Assembly: GCA_011364925.1 (NCBI GenBank)
Contig: RDOA01000001.1
Span: forward strand, 91,997-155,996
From: Promethearchaeota archaeon
Lineage (GTDB): Archaea > Asgardarchaeota > Lokiarchaeia > Sigyniarchaeales > SOKP01
DNA: 64,000 nt
Reading direction: 5' to 3'
The notes under the pieces: model-generated
The model's input: the letters and a program-made list of their open reading frames with translations, nothing else
Databases searched by the model: none
What the model was told of the DNA's origin: nothing
Translations under genes and position numbers: made by a program
Part shown: one piece after another, positions 6,201 through 49,452 of the stretch
Numbering within the stretch: position 1 is the first letter of the stretch
Layout: the number at the start of each line of letters is the position of its first letter

Positions 6201-7296
6201 TTTAGTATTTGATTGGTCAGATGGAATTGACCCCTCGGGCATTGTATGTTATATTTTGATAATTGATAACGAAACGGATCCTTTATCAACCCCTGGATAT
6301 ATAAATCTGTTTAATATTTCTAATACTGGAACTGAAAGTAGTTATTATGAACTATCCGAGAACTTACCGGTAGGGAAATACTATTACTTTTTAGCTCAAG
6401 TTGATGGAGCAGGACACCAAAGTAGTTATACAATGGGAACTTTTACGGTTATTTTGAATCCCGATAATCCAGATTTTTTTCTTATTATTATGTTAATTAT
6501 AATTGGTGCTGTGGTTTCAATCGCAGTCGTAGGAATCATAGTAAGGAAAAAGACTCAAAAAGAAACGCATCCCCCTCGTAAAAAAATTCCTTACAAAATC
6601 ACAATTCAACATCTTAATAAAATCTCTCCCCAAATGTCGGGTATGATCGCTAAAGATGCTCAGGAGATCCCAATTATTAAAGAAACAAGTCCCGAAAGTT
6701 TAATCGAAGAAATAGATATAGAGGAGCAAGTTAAATCTTTTAAAGATTTAGGAGAAGAGTTTTTCTCCAATGGAGCTTATTTAGAAGCAATCGAGCAATT
6801 TCAGAATGCTAAAAATCTTCTTTTAAAGCAAGGAAAGGATACAGATGTAACCTTAATTTCAGATTTAATAGAAGGGATTGAAAGATTAGTAGAAGGACGT
6901 GAATCTCGATTAAATTTGTTGAGGAAAGAGAAAACTGAGGGGAACACTGTGAAAATATTCAATTTGTATCAAGAAGTAATTGAAATATCAAATAAATTAA
7001 GAGATTTTGATATAATAACAATGTATCAAAATGAATTAACTGAGTATTTCAAAAATAATTTGTCTAAAATACCAGAAATTGAAAGTTATAGAAATGATTT
7101 AGAAAAAGAAGCAGAATTATTTATATCTACAAGAGATTTTAACCAAGCAGCTCAATTATTTGAAAAGTGTGAGGAAATATCTCAAATTTTGGAAAAATAT
7201 ACAAAAGAAGAAAGAACAAATGTTGAAAAATTTAGGTTTAAGAAAAATGTGTTGAATAAAAGAACTAATCAGAATCACAGAGGAGACATAGAATGA
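3208..7296 (+). CDS. Large surface protein: signal peptide, DUF2341 and LamG/ConA-like domains, about 6 Ig-like repeats, one TM helix, cytosolic TPR-like/coiled-coil domain
   Basis: KNFPVLVSILDSDLRYDV... (DUF2341-like), LamG-like region, repeats 'PPxYSxLxESxxPLELGxxxxIxIxxxDxxGIxxVxIExxGxNHSM', TM FFLIIMLIIIGAVVSIAVVGIIV, then helical EEFFSNGAYLEAIEQFQNAKNLL. Confidence 0.8.
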   Translation: MQILINLEGISIKKSTIVYLLISTITICTLLISADMTLNDLKYVNNCNNTETYVDGTPPFLRTSSNDPPNKNYFQYYKQITIPHEKVMGSGSHKNFPVLVSILDSDLRYDVQASGNDIAFANDTNWLYHEIELFNQSYNSTHAQLVSWVQIPNLSTSVDTTIYLYYGNATMTSQENPESVWSDYTSVWHLKESSGSGYYLKDSSINSYDGDPSGTVYLASGKIASARNFGANSDNIAISGGSSLLNGDSQFVFSFWMYPNYDSDSEWQNDGERRVFYKASSVRMARTWRATWQDAGKGIFQPDIEFDDYGTIYPNFEINRQSWNYIIYSYDSNYFRAYINGQLKSSQFIGSDSLISDSSTFHLGDIGNDCFDGYIDEFRISNNVNTNGWYQTEYNNQNNPNTFIILSEEEIVDHNPPLYSNLTESSNPLELGEIEIIQINVSDFSGISQVLIEFQGSNHSMSNLVGNKWQYDSWTPSSVGNYSYTIWMEDNCNNWNSTTGTIEVIDSTPPTYSNLIESADPLQFGQNETITIKVYDSPGSGVKQVFLEYEDDDLIYRNHTMNFEGSNSWSWHNWKPITVKVHSYKIYMEDNEDNWNMTSGTITIADTTAPVIENLIESTDPLELGNFITIDIDVYDNETIVSTVLIELEGVNHTMSTIGGNTYEYNWTRSVVGIVSYKIYANDSDNNWNSLSSSFDIIDTTPPDLSDLWKSEDPLELGNTIIIAVNSTDLSDIKQVKIEFEGSNHSMVYVGGNAWEYDLWIPPTTGNYLYTIWAEDNNKNWDYINDSVFVQDTTPPTYSGLVESANPVELGTLLAISINTADLAGIKEVLIEYENSNHTMINIGGNIWNFDSWMPNSIGNCTYKIYITDNSENLNYLDSWILFIDTIIPNFDNLFESANPLELGDTQIIRINAYDFAGINQCLIEYKGANHSMINIYGNTWQFDSWSPNNWTLYQYRIYVEDNSGNWNFVLDNFTVQDTTPPSPPILTNSPSGDVRGNLVFDWSDGIDPSGIVCYILIIDNETDPLSTPGYINLFNISNTGTESSYYELSENLPVGKYYYFLAQVDGAGHQSSYTMGTFTVILNPDNPDFFLIIMLIIIGAVVSIAVVGIIVRKKTQKETHPPRKKIPYKITIQHLNKISPQMSGMIAKDAQEIPIIKETSPESLIEEIDIEEQVKSFKDLGEEFFSNGAYLEAIEQFQNAKNLLLKQGKDTDVTLISDLIEGIERLVEGRESRLNLLRKEKTEGNTVKIFNLYQEVIEISNKLRDFDIITMYQNELTEYFKNNLSKIPEIESYRNDLEKEAELFISTRDFNQAAQLFEKCEEISQILEKYTKEERTNVEKFRFKKNVLNKRTNQNHRGDIE

Positions 7297-25386: not shown

Positions 25387-28300
25387 TTGAATAATATGAA
25401 TAACAACAGAAGGATTGAATACAAGTCACCAAATATTTCTGTCCCACCAACTTTCGATCTGGATTATCCTTTAAATTATTCGTTGTATGGGAAACTTGCT
25501 CCGAATTATTCTTTATCAAAAATTAAAACGGGAAATTATACATGGTATGAATTCTTGGATATCAGTACAAATTCAACGCCAGTAGAATTAGAAGGCACTG
25601 TAAATGAAAATTTTATTGGGACGTTTAACCAATCGATGTGGGACTCTTTAAGCAACGGAACTGCTACAATTCGTTTTTATGTTAATAATTCATTGGGTGA
25701 AATAAGCTTTCTAGACGCAATAATTAGAATTGATATTACAGATCCTTCCATCGACAGTATTGATTCACCCTCGCCAGGAACATGGTTTAGCGCTACACCC
25801 CCAAGTTATAGCCTTTCCATCACAGAGAAGAATCTTGACACTATCTGGTACACGCTCGATGAAGGGACGAACAACTACACCGGAGCGACGAGTGGAACGA
25901 TCGATTCTACCGCCTGGACTAACGCGGGTGACGGCGCAGTTACAATTACGTTCTACGTAAACGATTCTGTAGGTAATTGGGCGTCTTCAAGCGTAGGTGT
26001 TAACAAGGACAGTCTTGATCCTATAATCGATAGCATCGATTCTCCCTTGTCAGGAGCGTGGTATAGTAGTGCCCCTCCAAGTTATAGTCTATCCATAACG
26101 GAAGCGAATTTGGATTCTATCTGGTACACGCTAGATGGAGGATCGAACAATTACACCGGAGCGACGAGCGGAACGATCGATTCTACCGCCTGGACTAACG
26201 CGGGTGACGGCTTAGTTACAATTATGTTCTACGTAAACGATTCAGTAGGTAATATTGATTTTGCGAGTGTAGGTATAAACAAAGATACGCTTGACCCTTC
26301 TATCGACAGCATCGATTCGCCATTGTCAGGGGCGTGGTTTAATAGTGCTCCTCCAGATTATAGTCTTTCCATCACCGAGACGAATTTGGATTCTATTTGG
26401 TATACGCTCGATGGAGGGACAAACAACTTCACCGGAGCAACGAGCGGAACGATCGATTCTACCGCTTGGACTAACGCAGGTGACGGCGCAGTTACGATTA
26501 CGTTTTACGTAAACGATTCTTTGGGTAACTGGGATACCGCAAGTGTTATTGTTAACAAGGACACCCTTGATCCTTCTATCGACAGCATCGATTCTCCATC
26601 ATCTGGGGCGTGGTTTGATAATAATCCCCCAAGTTATAGCCTTTCCATCACGGAACCGAATTTGGATTCTATCTGGCACACGCTTGATGGAGGTTCGAAC
26701 AACTACACCGGAGGGGCGAGTGGAACTATCGACTCTACAGCTTGGATTAACGCGGGAGACGGTGCAGTTACGATTACATTTTATGTAAACGATTCCGTGG
26801 GTAATTTAGATAAAGCGAGTGTTATAGTTAACAAAGATACCCTTGATCCTTCCATTGATAGCATCGATTCGCCCATTTCTGGAGCTTGGTTTAGTAGCGT
26901 TCCTCCAAGTTATAGTCTTTCCATCACTGAGGCGAATCTAGACTCGATTTGGTACACGCTTGATGGAGGATCGAACAACTACACCGGAGCGATGAGCGGA
27001 ACGATCGACTCCACAGCATGGACCAACGCGGGTGACGGCGCAGTTACAATTACGTTTTATGTAAACGATTCCGTGGGCAATATCGATTTTGCAAGCGTAG
27101 CAGTTAATAAAGATACGGTCGATCCTTCTATCGACAATATTGATTCACCATTGTCGGGAGCTTGGTTTGCTGGTACTCCCCCTAGTTATACTTTATCCAT
27201 AACAGAGACAAACCTAAACTCGATTTGGTACACGCTCGATGGAGGTGTGAACAACTACACTGGAGCAACGAGCGGAACGATCGACTCCACAGCATGGACC
27301 AACATGGGTGACGGCGCAGTTACAATTACGTTTTACGTAAACGATTCCGCTGGAAATTTAAATTTTGCGAGTGTAATAATCAATAAAGATAGCGTGAATC
27401 CTTCCATTGATAGCATCAATTCTCCATCGTCTGGTGCGTGGTTTAATAATAATCCTCCAAGTTATAGTCTTTCCATCACCGAGACGAATTTAGACTCAAT
27501 TTGGTATACGCTCGATGGAGGTGCGAACAACTACACAGGAGCAACGAGCGGAACGATCTATTCTACCGCTTGGACTAACGTGGGTAACGGGGCAGTTACA
27601 ATTACGTTTTACGTAAACGATTCCGCTGGTAACTGGGCTTCCTCAAGCGTGGTAATTAACAAAGATAGCATAGATCCTTCTATCGACAGTATTGATTCGC
27701 CTTCTTCGGGCGCTTGGTTTGGTAGTAATCCTCCAAGTTATAGTCTTTCCATCACCGAGACGAATCTAGATTCTATTTGGTACACGCTCGATGGAGGTAC
27801 AAACAACTACACCGGAGGTGCGAGTGGAACTATTGATTCTACCGCCTGGACTAACGCGGGTGATGGTCTTGTAACGATTACTTTTTATGTAAACGACTCC
27901 GCAGGCAATATCGATTTTGCGAGCGTAGCAGTTAACAAAGATACCCTTGACCCTTCCATCGATAGCATCGATTCCCCATCACCGGGAGTGTGGTTTAGTG
28001 GTACTCCTCCAAGTTACAGCTTATCTATCACTGAAACGAATTTGGATTCTATTTGGTACACGCTTGATGGAGGTATAAACAACTACACTGGAGGTTCGAG
28101 TGGAATTATTGATTCTACCGCCTGGACTAACGCGGGTGATAGTCTTGTAACGATTATTTTTTATGTAAACGACTCCGCAGGCAATATCGATTTTGCGAGT
28201 GTAGCAGTTAACAAAGATACCCTTGACCCTTCCATCGATAGCATCGATTCCCCCTCGTCTGGAGCTTGGTTTGGTAGTGATCCTCCAAGCTACAGCTTAT

Positions 28301-31300
28301 CCATCACTGAGGCAAACCTAGACTCGATTTGGTACACCCTTGATGGAGGTACGAACAATTACACTGGAACAACGAGCGGAACGATTGACTCCACAGCCTG
28401 GACTAATGCAGGTGAAGGTGCAGTTACAATTACATTTTACGTAAACGATTCTGTAGGTAATTTGGATACCGCGAGCGTCGTAGTTAACAAAGATAGCGTT
28501 AATCCTTCTATTGATAGCATTGATTCACCATCTTCGGGAGCGTGGATTAGTAACACTCCCCCAACATATAGCCTTTCAATAACTGAAACGAATTTGGATG
28601 AAATCTGGTATACGCTCGATGATGGCATAAACAATTATACAGGAGCGGTAAGTGGAACGATTGACTCCACAGCCTGGACTAATGCGGGTGATGGTCTTGT
28701 AACGATTATTTTTTATGTAAACGACTCAACGGGTAATATTGCTTTTGCGAGCGTAGGTGTCAACAAAGATACCCTTGATCCTTCTATTGATAGCATTGAT
28801 TCGCCATCTTCGGGCGCGTGGTTTAGTAGTAATCCTCCAAGTTATAGCCTTTCCATCACCGAGACGAATTTGGATTCAATCTGGTATACGCTCGATGATG
28901 GTGCGAACAACTACACTGGAGGTTTGAGTGGAATTATTGATTCTACCGCCTGGACTAACGCGGGTGATGGTCTTGTAACGATTATTTTTTATGTAAACGA
29001 TTCCGCTGGTAATTGGGCATCCTCAAGCGTGGTAATTAACAAAGATAGCATAGATCCTTCTATCGACAGTATTGATTCACCTTCTTCGGGCGCTTGGTTT
29101 GGTAGCAATCCTCCAAGTTATAGTCTTTCCATCACCGAGGCGAATTTGGATTCAATCTGGTACACGCTCGATGGAGGTGCGAATAATTACACGGGAGCTA
29201 TAAGCGGAACGATTGATTCAACTGCATGGAGTATCGCGAGTCAGGGAGCAGTTACAATTACATTCTATGTAAACGATTCCGCTGGAAATTTAAATTTTGC
29301 AAGTGTAATAATCAATAAAGACAGCGTCGATCCTTCCATTGATAGCATCGATTCCCCATTACCGGGAGTGTGGTTTAGTAGTACTTCTCCAAGCTATAGT
29401 TTATCCATCACCGAGACGAATTTGGATTCAATCTGGTATACGCTCGATGATGGTGCGAACAATTACACCGGAACGACGAGTGGAACGATAGACTCTACAG
29501 CTTGGACTAACGCGGGTCAGGGATCCGTTACAATTACGTTTTTTGTAAACGATTCCGCTGGTAATTGGGTTTCCTCAAGCGTAGTAATTAACAAAGATAG
29601 CGTTGATCCTTCCATTGATAGTATCGATTCGCCATCCTCAGGAGTGTGGTTTAGTAGCTCACCTCCAAGTTACAGTCTTTCCATCACCGAGACGAATCTG
29701 GATACTATTTGGTATACGCTCGATGGGGGTACGAATAATTATACGGGAGCAGCTAGCGGAACGATAAACTCTACAGCTTGGGCTAACGCAGGTCAGGGAA
29801 CTATTACGATTACATTTTATGTGAACGATTCTGCAGGCAACTGGGCCTCTTCTAGCGTGATAATTAACAAAGATAGCGTTGATCCTTCCATTGATAGCAT
29901 CGATTCCCCATTACTGGGAATGTGGTTTAGTAGTACTCCTCCAAGTTATAGTCTTTCCATCACCGAGACGAATTTAGACTCAATTTGGTACACGCTCGAT
30001 GGAGGGACGACCAACTATACTGGAACAACGAGCGGAACGATTGATTCTACAGAATGGAGTAACGCTGGACAAGGTGCAGTTACGATTACATTTTATGTAA
30101 ATGATTCTGCAGGTAACTGGGCTTCTTCAAGCGTAGTAATTAACAAAGATAGCGTTGTTCCTTCTATCGACAGTATTGATTCGCCATCACCCAGTGAGTG
30201 GTTCAGCAGTAGTCCTCCTAGCTATAGTCTTTCCATTACTGAGACAAATTTAGACTCAATTTGGTACACGCTTGATGGAGGTATAAACAACTATACAGGA
30301 GCAGTAAGTGGAACTATCGATTCTACTGCTTGGTCTAACGCAGGACAAGGACCAGTTACGATTATTTTCTATGTAAACGATTCTGCAGGTAATTTAGCTT
30401 ATTCAAGTGTTGGAATTAATAAAGATAGTATTGATCCCTCGATAAATAGTATCAATTCGCCCTCATCGGGGGCATGGTTTAGTGACACACCTCCTGGTTA
30501 TAGCTTATCCATTACCGAAGCAAATCTAGACTCGATTTGGTATACGTTAGATGGAGGTTTGAATAATTACGCGGGAGCGGCAAGTGGAACGATCGACTTG
30601 ACGGCATGGACTAACGCAGGTCAAGGAGCCGTCACGATAACATTCTATGTAAACGATTCTGCGAGTAATTTAGATTCTGCGAGTGTGATAGTTAATAAAG
30701 ATACCTTACCTCCAATTTTAGTACTTAACACTCCAATGAATAACACTTATGTGAATAATGCCCCTCCAATTAATATCACCGTCTATGATAATTTTGCTAC
30801 TCTAACTTATACAGTATTAGGATACTCTCCTCTTTCACTAACAAATCATACGGCTGTTACCCTTAATCCTGCTATTTGGAGTTCTCTGTCTCAAGGAGTG
30901 TTTTATGTTGTTATTAGTGGTTTCGATTTATTAGGGCAATCCTCTAATCTTACGATCACTCTGTATAAAGATACGATTGCACCCATTATAAGCATCACTT
31001 CACCTGTAAATAACACTTACTCGAATGTACCACCTTATTTAAATGTCAATGCTGTAGATCCGAACCTTGATACAATCTGGTATAGCGTAAATAATGTTAA
31101 TATCACTTTGCAAAATAACACGCTACAGGAGTTGAATAGCTCAATTTGGGCCAGCTTGCAAGACGAAGGACAGTATGAGGTTAAAATATATGCAAACGAT
31201 ACGTTTGGTCATTTAAATGATCTTTACACGCTTAATCTTTACAAAGATATTATTTATCCTACCTTAATAATAAATTCGCCATTAAATAATTCCTACTATA

Positions 31301-34300
31301 AGCTAGAACCTATTATTAATGTTGTAGTTAGTGATCCTTATTTCGATTCTTTATGGTATCGTGTTGGATCCCAGAACATTCCTTTAACTAATGACACAAA
31401 CCAACAATTAACCACTAGTATTTGGAATAATCTACCTGAAGAGGGAAGTTTTATAATTTATTTCTACGCTAACGATAGTGCTGGTAATTTAAACGACTTA
31501 TTTAGTTTGACTCTAAATAAGGATGTAAGAAATCCTGAAGTTATAATTATAAATCCAAACTCAAACGATTTATTCGGGGAACCCTCTCCTGAGTTCCAAA
31601 TTTCCATAAATGAACTTAATTTAAACAAGACATGGTACATGTTATACAACAATTCATGGAGCTCTTTGAATTACACTTTTAGCGGATTAACTGGAGTAAT
31701 TAATCAACTCGCTTGGGACGCATTCAAAAACACAGATGTAACCATTAGATTTTACGCAAACGATACACTGAATAATTTGGGTTATACCGAAGTTACAATT
31801 CGGAAGAATATAATTGCTCCAATAATGACTATTGTTGATCCCCAAGATAATGACTTATTCGGAATTGAAGCCCCAAATATTACGATTTATAAAGCAGGAA
31901 TAGAATTAAATACTACTTGGTACACCCTAGATGGTGGATTAACTAATTTTACTTTTTCAGGATTAAGCGTTGTCGTAAACCAAGATGCGTGGAATAATTA
32001 TGGATTTAGCGATGTAATTATCACTTTTTATGTTAACGATTCGTTAGGAAGAATCGGATTCGACCAGATAATTCTTAAAAAAGATCCAAATCCTCCACAA
32101 ATTCTGATTACTTTCATTAATCCGTCAACTAATAATTCCTATTGTGCAACAGAACCAACTTTCAGAATTGCGGCATATGATCCAAATTTAGTTTCAATTT
32201 GGTATCGGGTCGGTTTAACAAATATAACTTTTACAAATAATTCAGTCTTAATTCTTAACGATACAATCTGGAACAGCTTACCTCAAGGGAAATTCACGGT
32301 CGAGATTTTCGCTGTAGATCAATTAGGATATCTCAACGATTCAATAACCTTGACATTCCACAAGGACACACTTGCTCCTAAACTTGTAATTAATCAACCA
32401 GAGGACTATACCTACTATGATTCGCCACCTCCACTTAATGTTACTGTATATGACCCAAATTACTTATCTTTTTCTCTTACCTACACCGTTGTTGGATACC
32501 TCCCCGATGCTATCACATTAGAGAATAACACTGAGGAATTTCTAAATCCCGCCATTTGGAATAGTCTTCCCCAAGGAGAATTTTCTGTTAGTATTACTGC
32601 CAGAGATACTTTTAATCAACGAAACAATACATTCGTTCTTACGTTATACAAAGATACAATTGGGCCAATTTTTGAAAGCCTTATACCAGAGAATTTCAGT
32701 ACCTACAACTCTCCTCCAACTTTATTAATTTCTTATTCTGACCCCAACCTTCAAACTATTTATTATAAAGTTGGTACAAGTCCAATAATACCCATATCCA
32801 ACGGCATATCTCAAGATCTTGATTCCTCCATTTGGAGTGGCTTAACTGACGTATCTTTTACCATCGAATTTTATGCAAATGATACCTTTGGTCATATGAG
32901 CACTGTTGTGAATCTGACTCTTATTAAGGATACAACTATTCCTCTAATAACTATAAATTCTCCATTAAATAACACATATTATTCTACACCTCCTACTATG
33001 AATTTAGCTTTATTAGATCTCAATCCTGATACAATATGGTATACTGTTCTAGGTAGTAAAGTAATACTTTCGGGAATACAACCATTTGATAACTCTATAT
33101 GGAACAGTTTAGATCAAGGAGAATTTCAAGTATACATATTTGCTAACGATACTGCTGGTAATCTAAATAATACTCTTGTTTTGACATTACTTAAGGATAC
33201 AAAAGCTCCTTTAGTAACGGTTAATTTACCCCTAAACAATACCTATTGGAATACACGACCAACGATTAATGTGGAGGCCTTTGATCCAAACCTAAATCTT
33301 ATTCAATATCTTGTAGCAGGTGGTTATGTTACATTGCAGAATGGAAATGATTCGACACTTGTCCCAATATTATGGAATCTGCTTGGCGAAGGTGAATTTA
33401 CTCTGCAGATTTTTGCTTCTGATACATTTAGTCAAACTAATAGTTCGGTTATACTAACGCTCTATAAAGACACAATATTACCTAATATTGATATCATTTC
33501 CCCCCAACCTAACGATTTCTTTGGAGAGAATGCTCCCTTTGTGTCTATAGATGTTACTGATACGAATTTAGAAGAAATTTGGTACCGGTTAAGCAATGGA
33601 ACGGTTGTTACTAATAATTACCCATGGACAGGTTCTATTGATCAGTCTGTCTGGGACCAGGTCGGAAATGGAACCGTTACCATACGGATTTACGCCAACG
33701 ATACTGCGAGAAATGTACAATTTGAAGAGGTGGTAGTTCGAAAAAACATCTACGCTCCTATAATTAGTATCAATTATTTAGATAATCATTCTCCTTACGA
33801 TAACGAATTATTCGGAATAACTGCGCCTTATTTTGATATTTATACGTCAGGCTCAGAACTACAGTTAACTTGGTATACAATAAATAATGGTATTACAAAT
33901 TTTACATTTACTGGGTTAAGTGGTTCAATAAATCAATCAGCGTGGGATGATTTTGAATCTGGCACTGTTCATACTATAACTTTGACTTTCTATGTTAATG
34001 ATTCTCTCGGAAAAATTGGTTTCGATGAGATAATTATAAGAAAGGACATAGACATCCCAACAGTAGTTATAAATTCTCCTGTTGATCAAACTCCATTCGC
34101 ATCATCTCCGTTACTGGATCTGACTGTAACAGACCCAAATCTACACAAAGTTTGGTATAGTGTCAATGGTGAAACGAGAGATATTACGAACAATTTAACT
34201 GTATTTCTTGATGATTCCATTTGGAATAGTTTGAGCGATGGTGCTTTTACAATTGAATTTTTTGCGAACGATACTATGGGGAATCTTAATAGTTTAAGAC

Positions 34301-34824
34301 ATTTAGATCTTTCCAAAGACACAACTGGTCCTACTATAGAAGTAATTAGACCTACTGAGAATCAGAGAGTTGGTCGAAGCGCTCCTTACATTGAAGTTCA
34401 AATCAGTGATATAAACGGGATGGATAGTTCTTGGTATAGGCTTATTGGATATGGCAATAACACACTTTTTAATGGACCGATTGATAGAGTGGATGTGTCG
34501 TTATGGGAAAATCTTTGGGACTCGCTCCCTGATGGTTCCGCAGTTACAATACGATTCATCTCAAATGATACTCTTGGAAATGTTGCCTTTATTGATGTGG
34601 ACTTGATTATTAATAAACCTGCACTCCCACCAAGAATATTCCAATATCCCTTGGGATTTTTAATTCCCACTTTAGGATTAGTGGCGTTGATTCCTTTTAC
34701 TGTGAAATTGACTAAGACACGATATTACAAATCGTTAAATAACAAGGATAGAAGAAAGTTAAGAAATGCTTTAATAGCTGCAGGATTCTTTCTATCCTTA
34801 CTAGCGGTATATTTTGTCTTTTAG
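25387..34824 (+). CDS. Giant surface protein with tandem Ig-like repeats and C-terminal TM anchor; true start probably upstream (see findings)
   Basis: 3145 aa of beta-rich repeats; C-terminal IPTLGLVALIPFTV and LIAAGFFLSLLAVYFVF hydrophobic segments. Confidence 0.85.
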   Translation: MNNMNNNRRIEYKSPNISVPPTFDLDYPLNYSLYGKLAPNYSLSKIKTGNYTWYEFLDISTNSTPVELEGTVNENFIGTFNQSMWDSLSNGTATIRFYVNNSLGEISFLDAIIRIDITDPSIDSIDSPSPGTWFSATPPSYSLSITEKNLDTIWYTLDEGTNNYTGATSGTIDSTAWTNAGDGAVTITFYVNDSVGNWASSSVGVNKDSLDPIIDSIDSPLSGAWYSSAPPSYSLSITEANLDSIWYTLDGGSNNYTGATSGTIDSTAWTNAGDGLVTIMFYVNDSVGNIDFASVGINKDTLDPSIDSIDSPLSGAWFNSAPPDYSLSITETNLDSIWYTLDGGTNNFTGATSGTIDSTAWTNAGDGAVTITFYVNDSLGNWDTASVIVNKDTLDPSIDSIDSPSSGAWFDNNPPSYSLSITEPNLDSIWHTLDGGSNNYTGGASGTIDSTAWINAGDGAVTITFYVNDSVGNLDKASVIVNKDTLDPSIDSIDSPISGAWFSSVPPSYSLSITEANLDSIWYTLDGGSNNYTGAMSGTIDSTAWTNAGDGAVTITFYVNDSVGNIDFASVAVNKDTVDPSIDNIDSPLSGAWFAGTPPSYTLSITETNLNSIWYTLDGGVNNYTGATSGTIDSTAWTNMGDGAVTITFYVNDSAGNLNFASVIINKDSVNPSIDSINSPSSGAWFNNNPPSYSLSITETNLDSIWYTLDGGANNYTGATSGTIYSTAWTNVGNGAVTITFYVNDSAGNWASSSVVINKDSIDPSIDSIDSPSSGAWFGSNPPSYSLSITETNLDSIWYTLDGGTNNYTGGASGTIDSTAWTNAGDGLVTITFYVNDSAGNIDFASVAVNKDTLDPSIDSIDSPSPGVWFSGTPPSYSLSITETNLDSIWYTLDGGINNYTGGSSGIIDSTAWTNAGDSLVTIIFYVNDSAGNIDFASVAVNKDTLDPSIDSIDSPSSGAWFGSDPPSYSLSITEANLDSIWYTLDGGTNNYTGTTSGTIDSTAWTNAGEGAVTITFYVNDSVGNLDTASVVVNKDSVNPSIDSIDSPSSGAWISNTPPTYSLSITETNLDEIWYTLDDGINNYTGAVSGTIDSTAWTNAGDGLVTIIFYVNDSTGNIAFASVGVNKDTLDPSIDSIDSPSSGAWFSSNPPSYSLSITETNLDSIWYTLDDGANNYTGGLSGIIDSTAWTNAGDGLVTIIFYVNDSAGNWASSSVVINKDSIDPSIDSIDSPSSGAWFGSNPPSYSLSITEANLDSIWYTLDGGANNYTGAISGTIDSTAWSIASQGAVTITFYVNDSAGNLNFASVIINKDSVDPSIDSIDSPLPGVWFSSTSPSYSLSITETNLDSIWYTLDDGANNYTGTTSGTIDSTAWTNAGQGSVTITFFVNDSAGNWVSSSVVINKDSVDPSIDSIDSPSSGVWFSSSPPSYSLSITETNLDTIWYTLDGGTNNYTGAASGTINSTAWANAGQGTITITFYVNDSAGNWASSSVIINKDSVDPSIDSIDSPLLGMWFSSTPPSYSLSITETNLDSIWYTLDGGTTNYTGTTSGTIDSTEWSNAGQGAVTITFYVNDSAGNWASSSVVINKDSVVPSIDSIDSPSPSEWFSSSPPSYSLSITETNLDSIWYTLDGGINNYTGAVSGTIDSTAWSNAGQGPVTIIFYVNDSAGNLAYSSVGINKDSIDPSINSINSPSSGAWFSDTPPGYSLSITEANLDSIWYTLDGGLNNYAGAASGTIDLTAWTNAGQGAVTITFYVNDSASNLDSASVIVNKDTLPPILVLNTPMNNTYVNNAPPINITVYDNFATLTYTVLGYSPLSLTNHTAVTLNPAIWSSLSQGVFYVVISGFDLLGQSSNLTITLYKDTIAPIISITSPVNNTYSNVPPYLNVNAVDPNLDTIWYSVNNVNITLQNNTLQELNSSIWASLQDEGQYEVKIYANDTFGHLNDLYTLNLYKDIIYPTLIINSPLNNSYYKLEPIINVVVSDPYFDSLWYRVGSQNIPLTNDTNQQLTTSIWNNLPEEGSFIIYFYANDSAGNLNDLFSLTLNKDVRNPEVIIINPNSNDLFGEPSPEFQISINELNLNKTWYMLYNNSWSSLNYTFSGLTGVINQLAWDAFKNTDVTIRFYANDTLNNLGYTEVTIRKNIIAPIMTIVDPQDNDLFGIEAPNITIYKAGIELNTTWYTLDGGLTNFTFSGLSVVVNQDAWNNYGFSDVIITFYVNDSLGRIGFDQIILKKDPNPPQILITFINPSTNNSYCATEPTFRIAAYDPNLVSIWYRVGLTNITFTNNSVLILNDTIWNSLPQGKFTVEIFAVDQLGYLNDSITLTFHKDTLAPKLVINQPEDYTYYDSPPPLNVTVYDPNYLSFSLTYTVVGYLPDAITLENNTEEFLNPAIWNSLPQGEFSVSITARDTFNQRNNTFVLTLYKDTIGPIFESLIPENFSTYNSPPTLLISYSDPNLQTIYYKVGTSPIIPISNGISQDLDSSIWSGLTDVSFTIEFYANDTFGHMSTVVNLTLIKDTTIPLITINSPLNNTYYSTPPTMNLALLDLNPDTIWYTVLGSKVILSGIQPFDNSIWNSLDQGEFQVYIFANDTAGNLNNTLVLTLLKDTKAPLVTVNLPLNNTYWNTRPTINVEAFDPNLNLIQYLVAGGYVTLQNGNDSTLVPILWNLLGEGEFTLQIFASDTFSQTNSSVILTLYKDTILPNIDIISPQPNDFFGENAPFVSIDVTDTNLEEIWYRLSNGTVVTNNYPWTGSIDQSVWDQVGNGTVTIRIYANDTARNVQFEEVVVRKNIYAPIISINYLDNHSPYDNELFGITAPYFDIYTSGSELQLTWYTINNGITNFTFTGLSGSINQSAWDDFESGTVHTITLTFYVNDSLGKIGFDEIIIRKDIDIPTVVINSPVDQTPFASSPLLDLTVTDPNLHKVWYSVNGETRDITNNLTVFLDDSIWNSLSDGAFTIEFFANDTMGNLNSLRHLDLSKDTTGPTIEVIRPTENQRVGRSAPYIEVQISDINGMDSSWYRLIGYGNNTLFNGPIDRVDVSLWENLWDSLPDGSAVTIRFISNDTLGNVAFIDVDLIINKPALPPRIFQYPLGFLIPTLGLVALIPFTVKLTKTRYYKSLNNKDRRKLRNALIAAGFFLSLLAVYFVF
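25741..30708 (+). repeat. 18 tandem 276-bp (92-codon) repeats within the giant surface protein
   Basis: Unit DPSIDSIDSPSSGAWFSSxPPSYSLSITETNLDSIWYTLDGGxNNYTGATSGTIDSTAWTNAGDGAVTITFYVNDSAGNxxxASVxxNKDTL. Unit starts at 25741, 26017 and 26293 were checked; 18 x 276 ends exactly at the change of repeat type at 30709. Confidence 0.95.
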
Positions 34825-40109: not shown

Positions 40110-41234
40110 CTAATTTAAATCTCTGAATTTTTCTAATAATTTTCTCTGTTCTTCAGAAATATTTTTAGGAATTTCAATAGATACGACCACATATTGATCT
40201 CCCTTACCTTTCCCTCTAAGATATGCAGCACCCCTATTTTTGATTCGAAATTCCGTCCCATGTTGGGTCCCTGGGGGTATCTTTAACTCTTTTTCAGTTA
40301 ACTTTTCGTTTTTATAATCAAGCGTAGGAACTTTGACTTCACCGCCTAATATTGCTGTGACAATATCAAGGTAAACTGGAGTAAATAGATCATTTCCCCG
40401 ACGAATAAAATGTTCGTTTTCCTCAATTTTTATACCTAAATAGAGGTCACCAGGAATAGCGCTACTTGATGGAACGTGTCCTGCGCCTTGAACTTTTAAA
40501 TGAACTCCATTTTCTATACCAGGAGGAATACTCACATGAATCGTCTTCTTTTCCGCGATTACTTTTCTACCGTCGCATGTGCGGCACTTTTTCTCAATAA
40601 TCTTACCCGTAGCATTACAATTATAGCATTCAGATTCCCGGATTATTGTTCCAAATCCGGATTGAGTCATCTTTCTTATTCGCCCTGAACCTTCACATTG
40701 AGGACAAATTTTAATACTTGAGGGATCTTCAGCACCAGTTCCTTCGCAATCGTCGCAAGGAGTGTATCTTTGAATAACAACATCTTTTTTTGTACCAAAC
40801 ATCGCTTCTTCGAATGTTACCTCAATAAAATCCTCGATATCCTGCCCTACTTCTCTGCGTGGAGCTGCCCTCGATCTTCCTCTTGAACCAAAGATACTAC
40901 CAAATCCAAAGTCGTCTCCAAAATTCCCCCCTCCAAAAATCGATCTGATAAGTTCGTCAAAACCAGGAATTCCTCCTCTGAAAATATTGCTCATGTCGAT
41001 ATCTACACCGCTAAATCCATACCTATCGTAATTGCTTCTCTTATTAGCATCGCTCAATACTTCGTAAGCTTCTTGAAGTTCAATGAACTTTTCCTTAGCT
41101 TTAGGATCGGTTTTATTTAAGTCTGGATGTAGTTTCCTTGCTAAGCGTCTATAGGCTAGTTTTATATCGTTTTCACTCGCATCCTTAGCTACTCCCAAAA
41201 CTTCATAGTAATCTCGCTTTTTATTTGTGCTCAT
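40110..41234 (-). CDS. dnaJ: Chaperone protein DnaJ
   Basis: J domain [35 protein letters not shown] region, CxxCxGxG zinc fingers. Confidence 0.97.
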
Positions 41235-41428
41235 TATCCAAATGCCACATATTGATCTCTGATTAGTTAAAATTCAATTACCTAGAATTAATTATGAAAT
41301 TTATCTTTTTAGGTAATAGGATATCTACAAAGAAATATATAAATTTCTTATAATTCATTTAAATAAAAAATGCATAATATAAGTAAAAGAAATAAAATGA
41401 GATGATTTCTCACAGGAATATAGATTGA

Positions 41429-43432
41429 TTAATCTGATTCTTCCCAATCTACATCTACTACGTGTTTTTTATCCTTCTCTTTTTTATCCTTGTCTTTTTT
41501 GTATGATGCTCCGCCAGCACCAGTACCACCCATATCTCCTGGTGGAACTCCACCCATCCCTCCTGGAGGAATGCCTCCCATCCCACTCGCTGCCTGTTGG
41601 GCTTGTTGAGCTGCTTGTTGATACACTTGATCTTGTGATTGTTGTGCATAAATTCTTTGAGAGAAACTATGCATCGATTTCTGGAGATTTTCAACTCCCA
41701 ATTTGATTCTCTGGAGGTCGTCTGTTTTAATATCTTCTTCAAGAGATTTAATAGCTGCCTCTATTGCGGTTTTCTCATCATCTTCAATCTTATCCTTATT
41801 TTCTTCCATTAATTTTTTAGTTTGATAGATCATTGAATCAGCGTTGTTCTTAGCTTCAATTACTTCTCTGAGCTTCTTATCCTCTTCCTCAAATTGTTCA
41901 GCGTTTCTCACTTTTTCTTCGATTTCTTCGGGAGTTAAGCCTTTTGCGCCTGTAACTGTAATACCTGTTTCTTTACCTGTGCCCAAATCTTTAGCGGTGA
42001 CGTGAACTATCCCGTCCGCGTCGATCGAGAATTTAACTTCTATTTGTGGGACTCCCCTAAATGCAGGAGGTATGCCCGTGAGATGAAACATACCTAATGA
42101 GATGTTATCTTTAGCCATCGCTCTTTCTCCCTGTAGAACATTAATCGTGACTGCGGGTTGATTATCAGCAGCTGTGCTAAAAATCTGCTGTTTCTCAGTA
42201 GGTATAGTTGTATTTCTCTCTATTAGTTTAGTAAATACTCCTCCTAAAGTTTCAACGCCTAACGATAGCGGAGTAACATCTAATAATAATAAATCTTCAA
42301 CGTCGCCTGCGATAATTCCTCCTTGAATCGCCGCTCCGATAGCAACGCATTCCATAGGATCGACAGAATGTTCCGGTTCTTTGCCAAAGAAGTCTTTAAA
42401 TCTTTTCTGAACTGATGGCATTCGCGTTGGTCCACCAACCAGAATTATTTTATCTACGCTAGCGGCTGACATTTTCGCGTCAGATACAGCTCTTTTCATT
42501 ATTGGATCAAGTCTTCTTAACGTTGGTTCAATTAGCTGCTCCAATTTTGCACGAGTCAATTCTACTTCAATATGGACCGGATTTCCTTCTTTTTGAGTAA
42601 TGTAAGGTAAGTTAATTTGAGTATTTAGAGTAGTGGATAATTCAATTTTAGCTTTCTCGGCAGCATCTTTAATTCTTATCATTGCTTTACTGTCTCCTTT
42701 AAGATCGATTCCTTCTTTCTTTTGGAAGTTTTCGGCTACCCAATCAATTATGGCGTTATCCATATCAGTTCCACCCAATTGCGTGTCCCCCGCAGTAGAT
42801 AAAACTTCAACTACGCCTTCTCCATACTCCATGATTGTTATATCGAACGTACCACCGCCTAAGTCCAGAACGCAGATCTTTAAGAGCTTACTCTTAGTAT
42901 CCTTGTCTAAACCGTATGCCAAGCATGCCGCGGTCGGTTCGTTGATCATTCGAACTACTTCGAGCCCAGCGATTTCTCCAGCGTTCTTTGTCGCTGTTCT
43001 TTGTGCGTCATTAAAATAAGCAGGGACCGTTATTACCGCTTTTTTAACTTCTTCGCCAAGATACGCACTTGCGTCGTTCTTAATTTTCTTGAGAATCATT
43101 GCAGAGATTTCTTCTGGAGAAAATTCTTTCCACTCTGTTCCGACTTTTATTTTAGCCTTGTAGGATAACCCCATTTTACGTTTAATAGCCGTAACTGTCC
43201 CATCTGGATTGGAAACTGCTTGTCGTCGAGCAGGTTCTCCCACTATTTTTCTCCCATTCTCATCAAATGCTACATATGATGGGAATGCTTTACCTCCTAA
43301 TGTTCGCCCTTCGGCAGCAGGAATAATCTCTGGTTGGCCAGTACCGCTCAAAACCGCACACGCGCTATTCGATGTTCCCAGGTCTATACCGATTATCTTT
43401 TCCTTTCTCTTTGATTTACTTTCTTCACTCAT
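41429..43432 (-). CDS. dnaK: Chaperone protein DnaK (Hsp70)
   Basis: [82 protein letters not shown]. Confidence 0.98.
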
Positions 43433-43800
43433 TATGTAATTCACTTCTTCAATGATTAATAGTAGAATTTGATTTAAATATCATATTTTTATTTTCTATT
43501 AATTTCAATGAGAGAAATAATTTTTGATATTTTTTTAATTTTATGACTAGGAGTTCATTCTATAACCATTTGAATTGAAAAAAATAATAATAAGAACCTT
43601 ATTGATCCGTTTTAGCAATAGTATTTACCACATATACTCTTAAGATTTTATCCCTTTTTTTATAAAAACATAAAAAATGATAAAAATTTTATTTTATTCT
43701 AATTTACTTAATCATACCAGTTCTTTAAATTAAGCATTCTAATCAAAAAAATTGTTATCGATTCTTAAGATACCTATCGAGATAGAATTTGTTCCTAAAA

Positions 43801-44628
43801 ATGCCTCGAAAAAAAAAGGATAAAGATAAAATGAGCGACGAATCAACTAAAAAGGAAGAAGCGCAATCACCTACTAAAGAAGTAACAAAGGTTAAGGACA
43901 AAGAAAATGGTGAATCCGCAGAAGAAAAAGAGGAACAAGAAACAAAACTTTTAGTAGGCAATGGACAGAAAGTTCTTGAATATCACGATCTTGACGAATT
44001 ACTTACAGAATGTACAAAGCTTAAAGAGGAAAGCAAAAAAGACAAGGATCGTCTTACAGAACTTCAAAAAGAAGTTGAAATTTGGAAAGGTAAACACATG
44101 AGACTTCAAGCGGAATTTGAAAACGCCCAAAAACGGTGGAGCAAAAACCAACAGAACCTAAGAAAAGAAAACATCGCGTACACTTTGAAATCATTCCTAC
44201 CATTATATGATTCCTTTAAAAAAGCGTTGGATGGCGACGATAAAAACCAAGCTGTGTTAAAACAATTCTACGACCAATTCATGGGCATCCTAAGGTTTCA
44301 TCAAGCTGAACCGATCAAGGTTAATGTAAACGATCCTTTTGACTATTCCTTACACGAAGCGTTGAGCACTCTAGAGCGAGACGATCTTCCTAACAATTCG
44401 ATTATAGAAATCATCCAAGACGGTTGGAAAATTGATAAGGACGTACTTAGATTCGCGAAAGTAATTGTCTCTCGAGAGCCATCTCCCCCAAAACCCGAAC
44501 CCGAACCTGAATCCAAGCCAGAACCAGAACTTGAAACAGAAGCAGAGGACAATGGCGCTCAAGATAATGGAGAAAGTAAAAAAGTGAAGATTGAAACAGA
44601 ACATATAGAACCTGAAGAGAAATACTAA
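43801..44628 (+). CDS. grpE: GrpE nucleotide exchange factor
   Basis: Coiled coil followed by LQAEFENAQKRW, LPLYDSFKKAL, DPFDYSLHEALSTLERDDLPNNSIIEIIQDGWKIDKDVLRFAKVIVS. Confidence 0.93.
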   Translation: MPRKKKDKDKMSDESTKKEEAQSPTKEVTKVKDKENGESAEEKEEQETKLLVGNGQKVLEYHDLDELLTECTKLKEESKKDKDRLTELQKEVEIWKGKHMRLQAEFENAQKRWSKNQQNLRKENIAYTLKSFLPLYDSFKKALDGDDKNQAVLKQFYDQFMGILRFHQAEPIKVNVNDPFDYSLHEALSTLERDDLPNNSIIEIIQDGWKIDKDVLRFAKVIVSREPSPPKPEPEPESKPEPELETEAEDNGAQDNGESKKVKIETEHIEPEEKY

Positions 44629-44808
44629 CAATACTAGTATTTTAAAAATTTATTTTCTATTAGATCACGCCTTACTTACTTGCCCTATTTATAAATTCAA
44701 GATAAGTTGTTAGTTTACATTATGTTTTATAATAAATACTTTTTATTACTTGAGTTTGGTTATGTACAATTAGTTTAACAAGTTTGTAATAAATTGGATA
44801 GATGAAAC

Positions 44809-45666
44809 ATGTCAATGATTCGAAAAGTAAAATCAGTTCTAAAAAGTAGAAGAACGATGGAAGGAGCCGGTGTAAGGTTAAGACGAGCTTTTGGATACGC
44901 TGATCCTTCTTTAGATCCTTTTTTATTGTTGGACGATTTTCATTCAGGCGATCCTCACGATTATCTAGCAGGATTTCCGTGGCACCCACATCGGGGCATT
45001 GAAACCATTACATATATGCTTCATGGAAAAATAGAACACGGTGACAGCATGGGCAATAAAGGCGTCATTGGATCGGGTGATGTTCAATGGATGACTGCGG
45101 GAAGTGGCATAATCCACCAAGAAATGCCGAAGAATAACCCGAACGATCCATTTCTGGCAGGCTTTCAATTATGGGCTAACCTTCCGGCATCTCATAAAAT
45201 GATGGACCCTCGATATCGTGACATAACTAACGAACAAATTCCAGAAGTTAGCATAAACGATAACATTAGAGTCAAAATAATCTGTGGTGAGATAAACGGA
45301 GTTAAAGGACCCGTCCAAGATATTGTAACTGATCCGGAATATTTAGATGTGTATATTGGGCCAAATTCAGAATTCAAACACGCAATTGATAATACGCATA
45401 ATGTTTTCGCCTATGTTATAGAAGGTGAAGCTTTTTTTGATCCAAGCAAAGAGAATATTGTTGACGAGGAGAACCTCGTCATTTTTAGAGAGGGTGGTGA
45501 AGTTATAGTAAATACTAAAGATAATTCTGTGAGGTTTCTATTAATCTCTGGAAAACCTATTGGAGAACCCGTAGCTTGGAGGGGGCCAATTGTCATGAAT
45601 ACGGAAGAAGAATTAAGAATCGCTTTTAGCGAATATAATAATGGTACGTTTATTAAGCATAGCTAA
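44809..45666 (+). CDS. Pirin family protein
   Basis: DPFLLLDDFHSGDPHDYLAGFPWHPHRGIETITYMLHGKIEHGDSMGNKGVIGSGDVQWMTAGSGIIHQEMP. Confidence 0.96.
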   Translation: MSMIRKVKSVLKSRRTMEGAGVRLRRAFGYADPSLDPFLLLDDFHSGDPHDYLAGFPWHPHRGIETITYMLHGKIEHGDSMGNKGVIGSGDVQWMTAGSGIIHQEMPKNNPNDPFLAGFQLWANLPASHKMMDPRYRDITNEQIPEVSINDNIRVKIICGEINGVKGPVQDIVTDPEYLDVYIGPNSEFKHAIDNTHNVFAYVIEGEAFFDPSKENIVDEENLVIFREGGEVIVNTKDNSVRFLLISGKPIGEPVAWRGPIVMNTEEELRIAFSEYNNGTFIKHS

Positions 45667-45894: not shown

Positions 45895-48800
45895 ATGGGA
45901 GAATATATAAACATTAAACTCAATAAAACCGTTGCATTTTGTCTTTTAGGTGTTATTATCTTAATCTTATTTAATTTCTCTCAGATTATTGATAACCTTA
46001 ACTTTAACAATCTTACTTATGGCACTGAAATTGAGAATTACGCAGGAGATATAAAAAGCTCAAGTTATTGGTTTTTAACATCTCCAATTGAAATAAACGA
46101 TCTTGAAGCTAATAATTGGACGTGGGCTGAGGAAGAACCTTGGTTTGGAGGAGGTAATGGTACCCTAAATAATCCTTACATTATTGAAAATGTTACTATA
46201 AATGTTGAGAAAAATTTTGATTTTGGAATAAATATCCAAAACTCAAATAAACATCTTCTAATCAACAATTGTACGGTTTCGAAAGCAAATTTAACAGGAA
46301 TTTTGTTAAGAAATGTAAATAATTCTGTTATAATTAATAACAAGGCTTTTAACAACAGTATTGTAGGAATTGGTCTAGTTAGTAGTAATCTTAATTTGAT
46401 ATTTGGAAATAATATAAGTGGAAATTCTATAGGAGGTATTGGATTAAATACTAGTTATTATAACTCTGTCTTAAATAATACAGTGTTTTCTAACACTGGT
46501 TATGGAATCGGCTTAGAATACTGTGATTATAATACAATTTCTAATAATACAGCAACCTTCAACGGAGAACAAGGGATTGGTTTGCTGAACTGTAAAAATA
46601 TTACGGTTTCAAGAAACAATGCGAGCTTTAATTCATTAGCAGGTATAGGAATCAGTTTTTGTAATAATAGCTCAATTAAACATAATATTGTAGATTCAAA
46701 CATTGGTTCTGGTATAAGTTTCGGTACCTGTAGTTTTACTTCAATATTAGATAATACAATATTGTCCAACGCTGGGTCTGGAATAGATATCGGGAATTCT
46801 GATCGCAATACAATTTCAAATAATGTAATAAATACTAATCGTAATGACGGGATAATTATTGTTGATTGTAATTATAACACATTTTCTAATAATGCTATTA
46901 ATAATAATCGTGATCAAGGGATGAATATCAGAACTTGTAATTTTAATACTCTTTCGAGCAATGCAATTAATAATAATCGTGATTTAGGGATTGGATTATG
47001 GAATTGCTTACATAACATCGTTTCGGGGAATGATGCAAACGGTAATGGTGATAGTGGAATATCTTTAGAAGCATGCAGTATTTCCTCTATTACGGGAAAT
47101 ACTGCAAATGTAAATGACCTTAATGGGATCTATATGTACAATTGCTTTATTACTAACATCTCAGTAAATACCATAGTAAGTAATCCTCAATATGGAATAG
47201 GTCTGTGGTATAGCGATAATATTGATATCTCGGAAAATTTAGTAGAAGATAATGGATGGGCAATATTTTTACAGTATTGTAATGAGAATAATATTATTGA
47301 AAACGATGTAATAGAAAGTGATAATTTAGGTATAGCACTTTGGTTCAGCGATAACAATATTATTACAGGAAATTATTTAGACAACAACGACTATTATGGT
47401 ATTTATCTAGTACGGAGCCATATCAACAGTATTACAAGCAACTCCATTAATAACGATCATAATGGAATCTATTTAGAATCAAGCACTATAAATACTATCC
47501 TAACAAATACAATTACAAACAATTATAACGGGATTTATCTAGTAAGCGGTCAAAGCAATAGTATTGTAGGTAACTCCATTAATGCCAATCATAATGGGAT
47601 TTATTTAGAACTTAGCGATAGTAATACTATCCAGTCAAATACAATTACTAACAACCAATATGGGATATATCTCTTTTCAAGTTATTCCAATTTTGTTTCA
47701 AATAATATATTTGACAGTAATGTCGTAGATATTTTTGATTCAGAAGAAGGCAATGGCGGGTATCCAAACGATGGTGATTTAAATCCTTTCATAATAATTG
47801 GTATTGTCTTAGCGATAATTGCTATCGTTATCGTAGCCAGTTTCGTTATCAAAAGTAGAAGATCTTCGAAAATTAAAGGTACTTCAGTAAGCAAACCTAA
47901 AATTGGACCTCAAACACAAGCAGAATTTAAAAAACCTCAACCAGAATTGAGATTAATCCCCCCATCAAAGCAAGTAGAGGAAGAAGATGAAGTTGAAGTC
48001 CTTCCACAAGAGATTATACCCAAAGAGGAAGAGATCATAGAAGAAGAAGTTATTGCTCCTATCGAAGAAATACCCGAAGAGGAACAAGTCTTAGAAGAGG
48101 AAATTATCGAATCTCTAGAAGAAATACCTAAAGGGGAAGAAATTGTAGAAGAAGAGGTTATTGCTCCTATCGAAGAAATACCCGAAGAGGAACAAGTCGT
48201 AGAAGAGGAAATTATCGAACCTTTAGAAGAAATACCTAAAGGGGAAGAAATTGTAGAAGAAGAGGTTATTACTCCTTTCGAAGAAATACCTGAAGAGGAA
48301 CAAATCGTAGAAGAAAAAGTAATTGCTTCTATCGAAGAAATACCTGAAGAAAAACAAATCGTAGAAGAGGAAGTTATCGGACCTCTAAAAGAAATACCTA
48401 AAGAGGAAGAAATAGTGGAGGGAAAGGTCATCGCTCCTCCAGAAGAAATGAGTGAAAAGGTAGAAGATGTAGAAGAACAAGTTGTTATCTCTCCTCCTGA
48501 AATAATTAAAAAGCAAAAGCTTGCTGCAACAGAGGGAATTAAATTCAAAGCTCCTGATACTATTGAAAAAATTCTACTCTTAAAAACTCTAAGTGGACAT
48601 CTATTAGGAGTCACATCTGTAGCGATTTCTCCATATGGGGAGTTAATCGTGAGTGGTTCGAAAGATAAAACGATCAGATTATGGGAGTTACCCTCAGGTA
48701 ATCTTGTGAGAATCCTTAGAGGACACAGCAAAAACGTTACTTCCGTTACTATATCACCAGATGAAAAATACATAATTAGTGGCTCAAACGATAAATCTAT

Positions 48801-49452
48801 CAAAGTTTGGGAATTAGATACTGGAAAACTCATCCATACTCTCAAGGGACATACCTTTTACGTACTATCCGTTGCTATTTCTCCTGACGGGAGATATATT
48901 GCGAGTGGCTCATTCGACAGGACTATTAAAATTTGGGAATTATCAACTGGAAAACTTGTGAGGACGATTGATGGGCATCAGAAGGAAATAAATTCGATTA
49001 CGATATCCTCTGATAATAAGTATCTCGTAAGTGGATCAGCCGATAAGACTATAAAAATCTGGGATTTTCCTAGTGGGGAGTTATTTAAAACTATTCATGG
49101 TTCAAATAGGCCAGTGACTTCAGTTGCGTTTTCTTCAGATGAAAAATATGTAATTAGTAGTTCTAGAGACAAATCTATTAAAGTGTGGGAAGTTACATCA
49201 GGAAATCTTGTAAGAACTTTGGAAGGGCATGCGTTCTTTGTGCTATCTATAATACTTTCTCCCAACGATAAATATTTAGTCAGTGGCTCATTTGATAGGC
49301 AAGTTAAGGTTTGGGATTTTTTAACTGGAAGTGTGATTGAAACGCTTAAAAAGCACAAAAAAGAGGTTAATTCCGTGGCTTTCTCTCCAGACTATAAATA
49401 CATCGTTAGTGGTTCTTCTGATAATAAGATTAATATCTGGGAAATCCATTAA
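45895..49452 (+). CDS. Transmembrane protein: extracellular parallel beta-helix (NosD-like), single TM, acidic repeat stalk, seven C-terminal WD40 repeats
   Basis: Repeats like NTISNNxxxxNxxxGIGLxxC; TM FIIIGIVLAIIAIVIVASFVI; EEIPEEEQVVEEE repeats; seven GH...SGSxDKTIKxWE blades. Confidence 0.93.
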   Translation: MGEYINIKLNKTVAFCLLGVIILILFNFSQIIDNLNFNNLTYGTEIENYAGDIKSSSYWFLTSPIEINDLEANNWTWAEEEPWFGGGNGTLNNPYIIENVTINVEKNFDFGINIQNSNKHLLINNCTVSKANLTGILLRNVNNSVIINNKAFNNSIVGIGLVSSNLNLIFGNNISGNSIGGIGLNTSYYNSVLNNTVFSNTGYGIGLEYCDYNTISNNTATFNGEQGIGLLNCKNITVSRNNASFNSLAGIGISFCNNSSIKHNIVDSNIGSGISFGTCSFTSILDNTILSNAGSGIDIGNSDRNTISNNVINTNRNDGIIIVDCNYNTFSNNAINNNRDQGMNIRTCNFNTLSSNAINNNRDLGIGLWNCLHNIVSGNDANGNGDSGISLEACSISSITGNTANVNDLNGIYMYNCFITNISVNTIVSNPQYGIGLWYSDNIDISENLVEDNGWAIFLQYCNENNIIENDVIESDNLGIALWFSDNNIITGNYLDNNDYYGIYLVRSHINSITSNSINNDHNGIYLESSTINTILTNTITNNYNGIYLVSGQSNSIVGNSINANHNGIYLELSDSNTIQSNTITNNQYGIYLFSSYSNFVSNNIFDSNVVDIFDSEEGNGGYPNDGDLNPFIIIGIVLAIIAIVIVASFVIKSRRSSKIKGTSVSKPKIGPQTQAEFKKPQPELRLIPPSKQVEEEDEVEVLPQEIIPKEEEIIEEEVIAPIEEIPEEEQVLEEEIIESLEEIPKGEEIVEEEVIAPIEEIPEEEQVVEEEIIEPLEEIPKGEEIVEEEVITPFEEIPEEEQIVEEKVIASIEEIPEEKQIVEEEVIGPLKEIPKEEEIVEGKVIAPPEEMSEKVEDVEEQVVISPPEIIKKQKLAATEGIKFKAPDTIEKILLLKTLSGHLLGVTSVAISPYGELIVSGSKDKTIRLWELPSGNLVRILRGHSKNVTSVTISPDEKYIISGSNDKSIKVWELDTGKLIHTLKGHTFYVLSVAISPDGRYIASGSFDRTIKIWELSTGKLVRTIDGHQKEINSITISSDNKYLVSGSADKTIKIWDFPSGELFKTIHGSNRPVTSVAFSSDEKYVISSSRDKSIKVWEVTSGNLVRTLEGHAFFVLSIILSPNDKYLVSGSFDRQVKVWDFLTGSVIETLKKHKKEVNSVAFSPDYKYIVSGSSDNKINIWEIH
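48010..48441 (+). repeat. 54-bp (18-aa) tandem repeats coding an acidic linker, about 8 units
   Basis: EEIPEEEQVLEEEIIESL / EEIPKGEEIVEEEVIAPI alternating units; unit starts at 48010 and 48064. Confidence 0.85.

Follow-up and report, generated by a model that had tools for sequence, protein, structure and literature searches.

Several described protein families resemble one part or another of the protein reported here. NosD and other periplasmic proteins matched by PF05048 place a right-handed parallel β-helix outside the membrane, and NosD is not known to act as a receptor that spans the membrane and carries a cytosolic domain. Toll-like receptors join a solenoid ectodomain, built of leucine-rich repeats, to one transmembrane helix (TM) and a cytosolic module, whereas PknD-type proteins of M. 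tuberculosis are single-pass receptors that use a β-propeller, with the propeller outside and a kinase inside. PkwA from Thermomonospora (5yzv) and the cyanobacterial kinase-WD40 proteins possess a seven-blade, highly repetitive WD40 domain preceded by a kinase or another N-terminus. A systematic survey of prokaryotic WD40 proteins comprised 63 archaeal members and reported links to kinases, and the accessible part of its text makes no mention of a fusion with a β-helix (PMC5587647). A description of β-helix and WD40 combined in Asgard archaea was not found in the open-licence literature either.

In the window, i.e., the 64,000-nucleotide stretch of a Lokiarchaeia contig (RDOA01000001.1) that was analyzed, a single uninterrupted frame with an ATG start (45895..49452, +) encodes a single-pass membrane protein of 1185 amino acids that has a syntenic ortholog in another genome (G021). 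The earlier note had read this frame as a β-helix, a transmembrane segment, an acidic stalk, and a seven-blade WD40 propeller, and this layout was confirmed by the reading frame, Pfam, hydropathy analysis, and a full-length AlphaFold2 model built with six sequences. Hydropathy indicated two hydrophobic segments: residues 14-32 (45934..45990, +; model helix 12-22), corresponding to a signal peptide or a signal anchor that could remain uncleaved, and residues 633-651, a strong TM that coincides with a model helix at residues 631-653 (47785..47853, +). Between them lies the extracellular domain (residues 59-615; 46069..47739, +), modeled as solenoid β strands. The TM is followed by the basic cytosolic flank IKSRRSSKIK (residues 652-661; 47848..47877, +), an acidic disordered stalk with imperfect 18-residue repeats (residues 662-892; 47878..48570, +), the closing (velcro) strand of the propeller (residues 893-900; 48571..48594, +), and seven WD40 repeats of 42 residues each (residues 901-1185; 48595..49449, +). 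The propeller had also been said to terminate at the stop codon, and it does so, with the WD40 domain covering residues 893-1184 in the 1185-residue model.

The ectodomain starts with an N-cap and continues in coils with a period of 23 residues. It matched the Beta_helix model PF13229 with 232.1 bits (cut-off 25.9, E=3e-69) and the NosD repeat model PF05048 with 214 bits (E=2e-63), and it passed the repeat model TIGR03804 with 185 bits against a cut-off of 19.45. When modeled alone with AlphaFold, it gave a pLDDT of 87.5 and a pTM of 0.82, and the repeat scores above cut-off together with the solenoid fold identify it as a right-handed parallel β-helix, as in NosD. Its Foldseek neighbors were mostly polysaccharide lyases and epimerases (largely alginate-specific), phage tailspikes, and an adhesin, and they included pneumococcal adhesin PfbA and antigen 43; these matches were weak (TM-scores of about 0.15-0.45), the fold being generic for long rods. 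A likeness to carbohydrate-binding NosD and pectate-lyase helices had been proposed; the family models for NosD and AlgG missed their cut-offs (see below), and carbohydrate binding, read from neighbors with such low TM-scores, is suggestive only. Nine of the 11 cysteines share one register of the 23-residue period (coil position 7); a metal site built from this Cys/Ser ladder was considered and rejected, since this is a turn position for small residues, often Ser.

The stalk, of about 235 residues, contains about 32% Asp plus Glu and neither Asn nor Cys, its autocorrelation is highest at a period of 36 residues and next at 18, and it was modeled without structure at pLDDT values below 50 (about 25-40 for residues 655-888). 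The domain that follows matched PF00400 in seven stretches (286.8 bits versus a cut-off of 27, E=3e-88) and was modeled at a pLDDT of about 90 with the blade layout of a propeller, comprising 29 strands, i.e., the closing strand plus 28 others. In the model, the closing strand ahead of blade 1 completes the ring, blade 7 being devoid of an outer strand. The best fold match was bacterial PkwA (5yzv; Foldseek TMt 0.98). In sequence, the solved structure that matched best was 2ymu, a highly repetitive propeller, and designed propellers came next. Blades 5-7 are similar to blades 2-4, and blades 3 and 6 each have an aromatic motif behind GH (TFYV and AFFV, respectively; SWFV, TWYV, TWWV or TMYV in kin) that is present in all six relatives examined, so that, judged by sequence, the two motifs might form a paired binding site. 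As to the description of this domain as a eukaryote-like scaffold, a cytosolic propeller is indeed predicted, but a eukaryotic character in any specific sense is only weakly supported, the closest solved propellers being prokaryotic or designed. The WDR5 model PF25175 scored 251.5 bits versus 250, a value inflated by the repeats, and the WD40 tree contains prokaryotes only. No kinase domain was found among the best 25 Pfam matches listed, nor is there a free folded region for one. The protein shares with PkwA and the cyanobacterial kinase-WD40 proteins a seven-blade, highly repetitive propeller, whereas it carries a β-helix ahead of it.

That the helix and the propeller lie on opposite sides of the membrane, as had been suggested, is well supported by several independent predictions: (i) a basic stretch directly follows the TM in all four candidate receptors with this architecture, as expected from the positive-inside rule; (ii) sequons occur at 2.85, 3.68, 4.43, and 0.39 per 100 residues in the four ectodomains, at zero in all four stalks, and at no more than 0.34 in the propellers; (iii) the nearest kin of the stalk and propeller module are soluble proteins of two other genomes (G015 and G023) without a TM; and (iv) other β-helix-TM proteins carry TIR_2 (40-59 bits versus 28) or an ABC ATPase (93 bits versus 25) after the TM, and since these domains work in the cytosol, the C-terminus should be cytosolic as well. 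An external WD40 domain was rejected in view of the charge flank, the sequon distribution, and the tails of family members. By prediction, the protein is therefore of the single-pass type I, with a signal, an ectodomain, one TM, and a cytosolic C-terminus. It resembles PknD-type receptors in being single-pass and in having a propeller, which is placed inside here and outside in PknD.

The gene is present in a single copy in its own genome (3.9 Mb, 112 contigs). Its ortholog in G021, a genome of another species in the same genus, encodes a full-length protein of 1140 residues with 57% identity, and in both cases the gene is preceded by dnaJ, dnaK, grpE, and pirin. Shorter versions were found in different neighborhoods of G003 (L046; 772 residues, shorter helix) and of G152 (L150; 764 residues), the latter belonging to another genus of the family. 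Since the same fusion recurs in a syntenic full-length ortholog and in two non-syntenic shorter versions of complete architecture, it is neither a chance event nor an assembly join, and the architecture withstands this objection. Four genomes from two genera thus encode the complete arrangement, two of them in synteny, and these four were the only WD40-bearing receptors detected among 228 genomes of the phylum at the threshold used. Among the best 80 GTDB loci for the profile, helix and WD40 shared one ORF only in SOKP01000046.1 (Candidatus Lokiarchaeota archaeon E44_bin85), which the G003 locus matches; the WD40 proteins of the remaining loci were bacterial or, in a few cases, archaeal, and several of them had a hydrophobic segment at the N-terminus or further inside. 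The gene is flanked by those for pirin and GrpE, a small protein with a zinc ribbon, and a membrane protein without a family assignment. The receptor gene adjoins the dnaJ-dnaK-grpE cluster (window 40110-45666), and soluble relatives of its WD40 module are located near a thermosome-like gene (L047:1773-3458), which may be a coincidence.

Two other ORFs of the window were noted. One of them (3208-7296) consists of a LamG/DUF2341/Ig-type ectodomain, a TM at residues 1090-1108, a basic patch, and a helical tail looking TPR-like; the parallel with the 1185-residue protein that the earlier note had drawn holds for this outline, but no TPR family in Pfam matched the tail. The other (25387-34824; 3145 residues) combines Big_13 repeats with a pair of hydrophobic segments located at its extreme C-terminus.

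The architecture belongs to a larger family of β-helix proteins, of which 118 distinct ORFs were sampled from relatives, 102 of them with a complete C-terminus and a TM after the helix; as they were selected by match strength and ORF length, the tail counts are no frequencies. Tail lengths were bimodal, with 81 of at most 31 residues, 21 of at least 88, and none between, i.e., about 80% of the sampled TM-bearing relatives stop shortly after the TM. Four long tails were discarded (L264 is polytopic, while in L206, L223, and L056 the called TM lies inside the ectodomain). The remaining 17 comprised WD40 (three), TIR (four), a Cys/His-rich zinc finger read from sequence (four), a zinc ribbon (two), a shared domain without a family match (two), a winged HTH (one), and one other tail, and a further sequence set added more TIR tails, one ABC ATPase, and another zinc ribbon. 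Some ectodomains of the family also carry the solute-binding domains Peripla_BP_6 and SBP_bac_5. The WD40 modules of the four receptors form one clade (support 99/99) with those of the two soluble proteins of G015 and G023, which begin with an HTH-like segment and a zinc-ribbon-like CPYC...CAYC pair (as read from their residues) and continue with a similar stalk and propeller. In the tree of ectodomain N-caps, the window and G021 proteins stand apart, and those of G003 and G152 branch among proteins that are anchor-only; forcing all four into one clade was rejected (p-AU 0.0045; 103 columns of modest resolution). With anchor-only and zinc-ribbon relatives, the ectodomain of G003 shares about 48-56% identity, and therefore similar rods carry different tails. 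Since the WD40 modules form one clade and the ectodomains do not, the module was joined to different rods, or the rods were exchanged, more than once. Stalk and propeller are, thus, an interchangeable module found on different rods and in soluble proteins.

Several other tails were observed in this family. A β-helix, a single TM, and a cytosolic TIR domain are combined in L263:2-4216, L263:4221-8480, L265:1098-6728, L198:2622-5249, L296:938-7555, and L304:2957-7228 of Lokiarchaeial genomes, some of these proteins bearing outer solute-binding domains in a layout of Toll-like-receptor style. In the TIR tails, the Glu of an S..V..EW motif aligns with the DE of the CRISPR-associated TIR protein Cat1, and one β-helix-TIR protein (L295:1610-6646) ends inside the TIR domain, being possibly a decayed or frameshifted copy. 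One protein (L292:2843-5539) unites a β-helix, a TM, and an ABC-transporter ATPase. L229:2899-5343 and L237:1435-3666 have a cytosolic domain in common that found no match in Pfam or PDB, and a roadblock-like identity was dropped for this reason. The zinc-finger tail (CVVHKGPVEG..YLCPHC..FYC..CA..L...G..CW.C) occurs in L049:1850-5242, L052:1637-4759, L052:4954-7926, and L055:3770-6712 behind β-helix or β-helix-PKD ectodomains. The analogy with Toll-like receptors (solenoid ectodomain, one TM, cytosolic module, and TIR in some relatives) applies to the family and not to its WD40 member, which has WD40 instead of TIR; in addition, the rods are β-helices in place of leucine-rich repeats, and no homology of ectodomains is claimed.

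Taken together, we consider it reasonably probable that the 1185-residue protein is a modular single-pass receptor or adhesin of Lokiarchaeia whose propeller serves to dock cytosolic partners. The designation "receptor" in the earlier note agrees with the predicted single-pass topology, with the helix outside and the propeller inside, while signaling itself would be a further step. The rigid and probably glycosylated rod would point outward and meet a ligand, for which a glycan or the surface of a partner cell is the likeliest candidate, if its weak and generic fold neighbors are any guide. The single TM and the long flexible stalk would tether the propeller in the cytosol, and clustering of ligand-bound rods would concentrate the propellers so that cytosolic partners might be held near the membrane and brought together. 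Lacking any attached enzyme, the propeller would work by keeping hold of partners, and as the stalk is disordered, recruitment or clustering is a likelier means of transmission than a conformational change.

The rod might instead hold the cell to a surface, a partner, or the glycocalyx, with the WD40 domain tying it to cytosolic structures and no signaling involved. Four-fifths of the sampled TM-bearing relatives end right after the TM, as surface proteins would, and since the family is made up mostly of surface proteins that are simply anchored, the primary role of the rod may be structural; moreover, PfbA and antigen 43 are among the fold neighbors, and a long stalk suits a tether. However, we know of no cytoskeletal partner, and the TIR, winged-HTH, and ABC-ATPase tails as well as the solute-binding ectodomains in the family fit sensing better, which makes a pure adhesin or envelope strut unlikely, albeit worth considering. 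A NosD-like role, in which the β-helix cooperates with a membrane machine (ABC or other) that handles metal or glycans and is assembled by the propeller, is improbable: PF05048 matched, NosD structures turned up in both sequence and fold searches, and the fusion to an ABC ATPase in L292 recalls NosD with its ABC transporter, but the NosD subfamily model TIGR04247 gave 118.6 bits versus a cut-off of 300, so that membership was rejected, and no nosF/nosY-like gene was seen among the flanking genes. An active polysaccharide lyase or epimerase with an incidental WD40 domain is very improbable, since, despite the dominance of alginate lyases and epimerases among the fold neighbors and a weak phmmer match to AlgG, the AlgG mannuronan epimerase equivalog NF038177 scored 23.6 bits versus 700 (thus excluding AlgG membership), the ectodomain lacks the DPHD motif, which we take to be the one used by AlgG-type epimerases, and its coils are poor in Lys, Arg, and His.

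More tentatively, the single-pass receptors of Lokiarchaeia may form an expanded set that has arisen by domain shuffling and that combines β-helix rods with interchangeable cytosolic modules (WD40, TIR, zinc fingers, winged helix, ABC ATPase) in Toll-like-receptor style. The WD40 member would then be a non-enzymatic docking version, perhaps meeting a soluble WD40-TIR protein of its own genome (L059:4620-8303, on G000:C25). The latter, which contains about 19 WD40 repeats and ends in a TIR-like stretch, is a conceivable partner. Several genomes of the genus encode similar WD40 ORFs of 1126-1232 residues.

To our knowledge, little is known about how Asgard archaea sense surfaces, glycans, or partner cells, although models of how eukaryotes arose give a central place to contact with partners. 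If true, a shuffled family of rod receptors with adaptor, TIR, and DNA-binding tails would offer named, testable candidates for outside-in communication, and it would mean that receptor building through domain shuffling takes place in Asgard archaea, close prokaryotic kin of eukaryotes.
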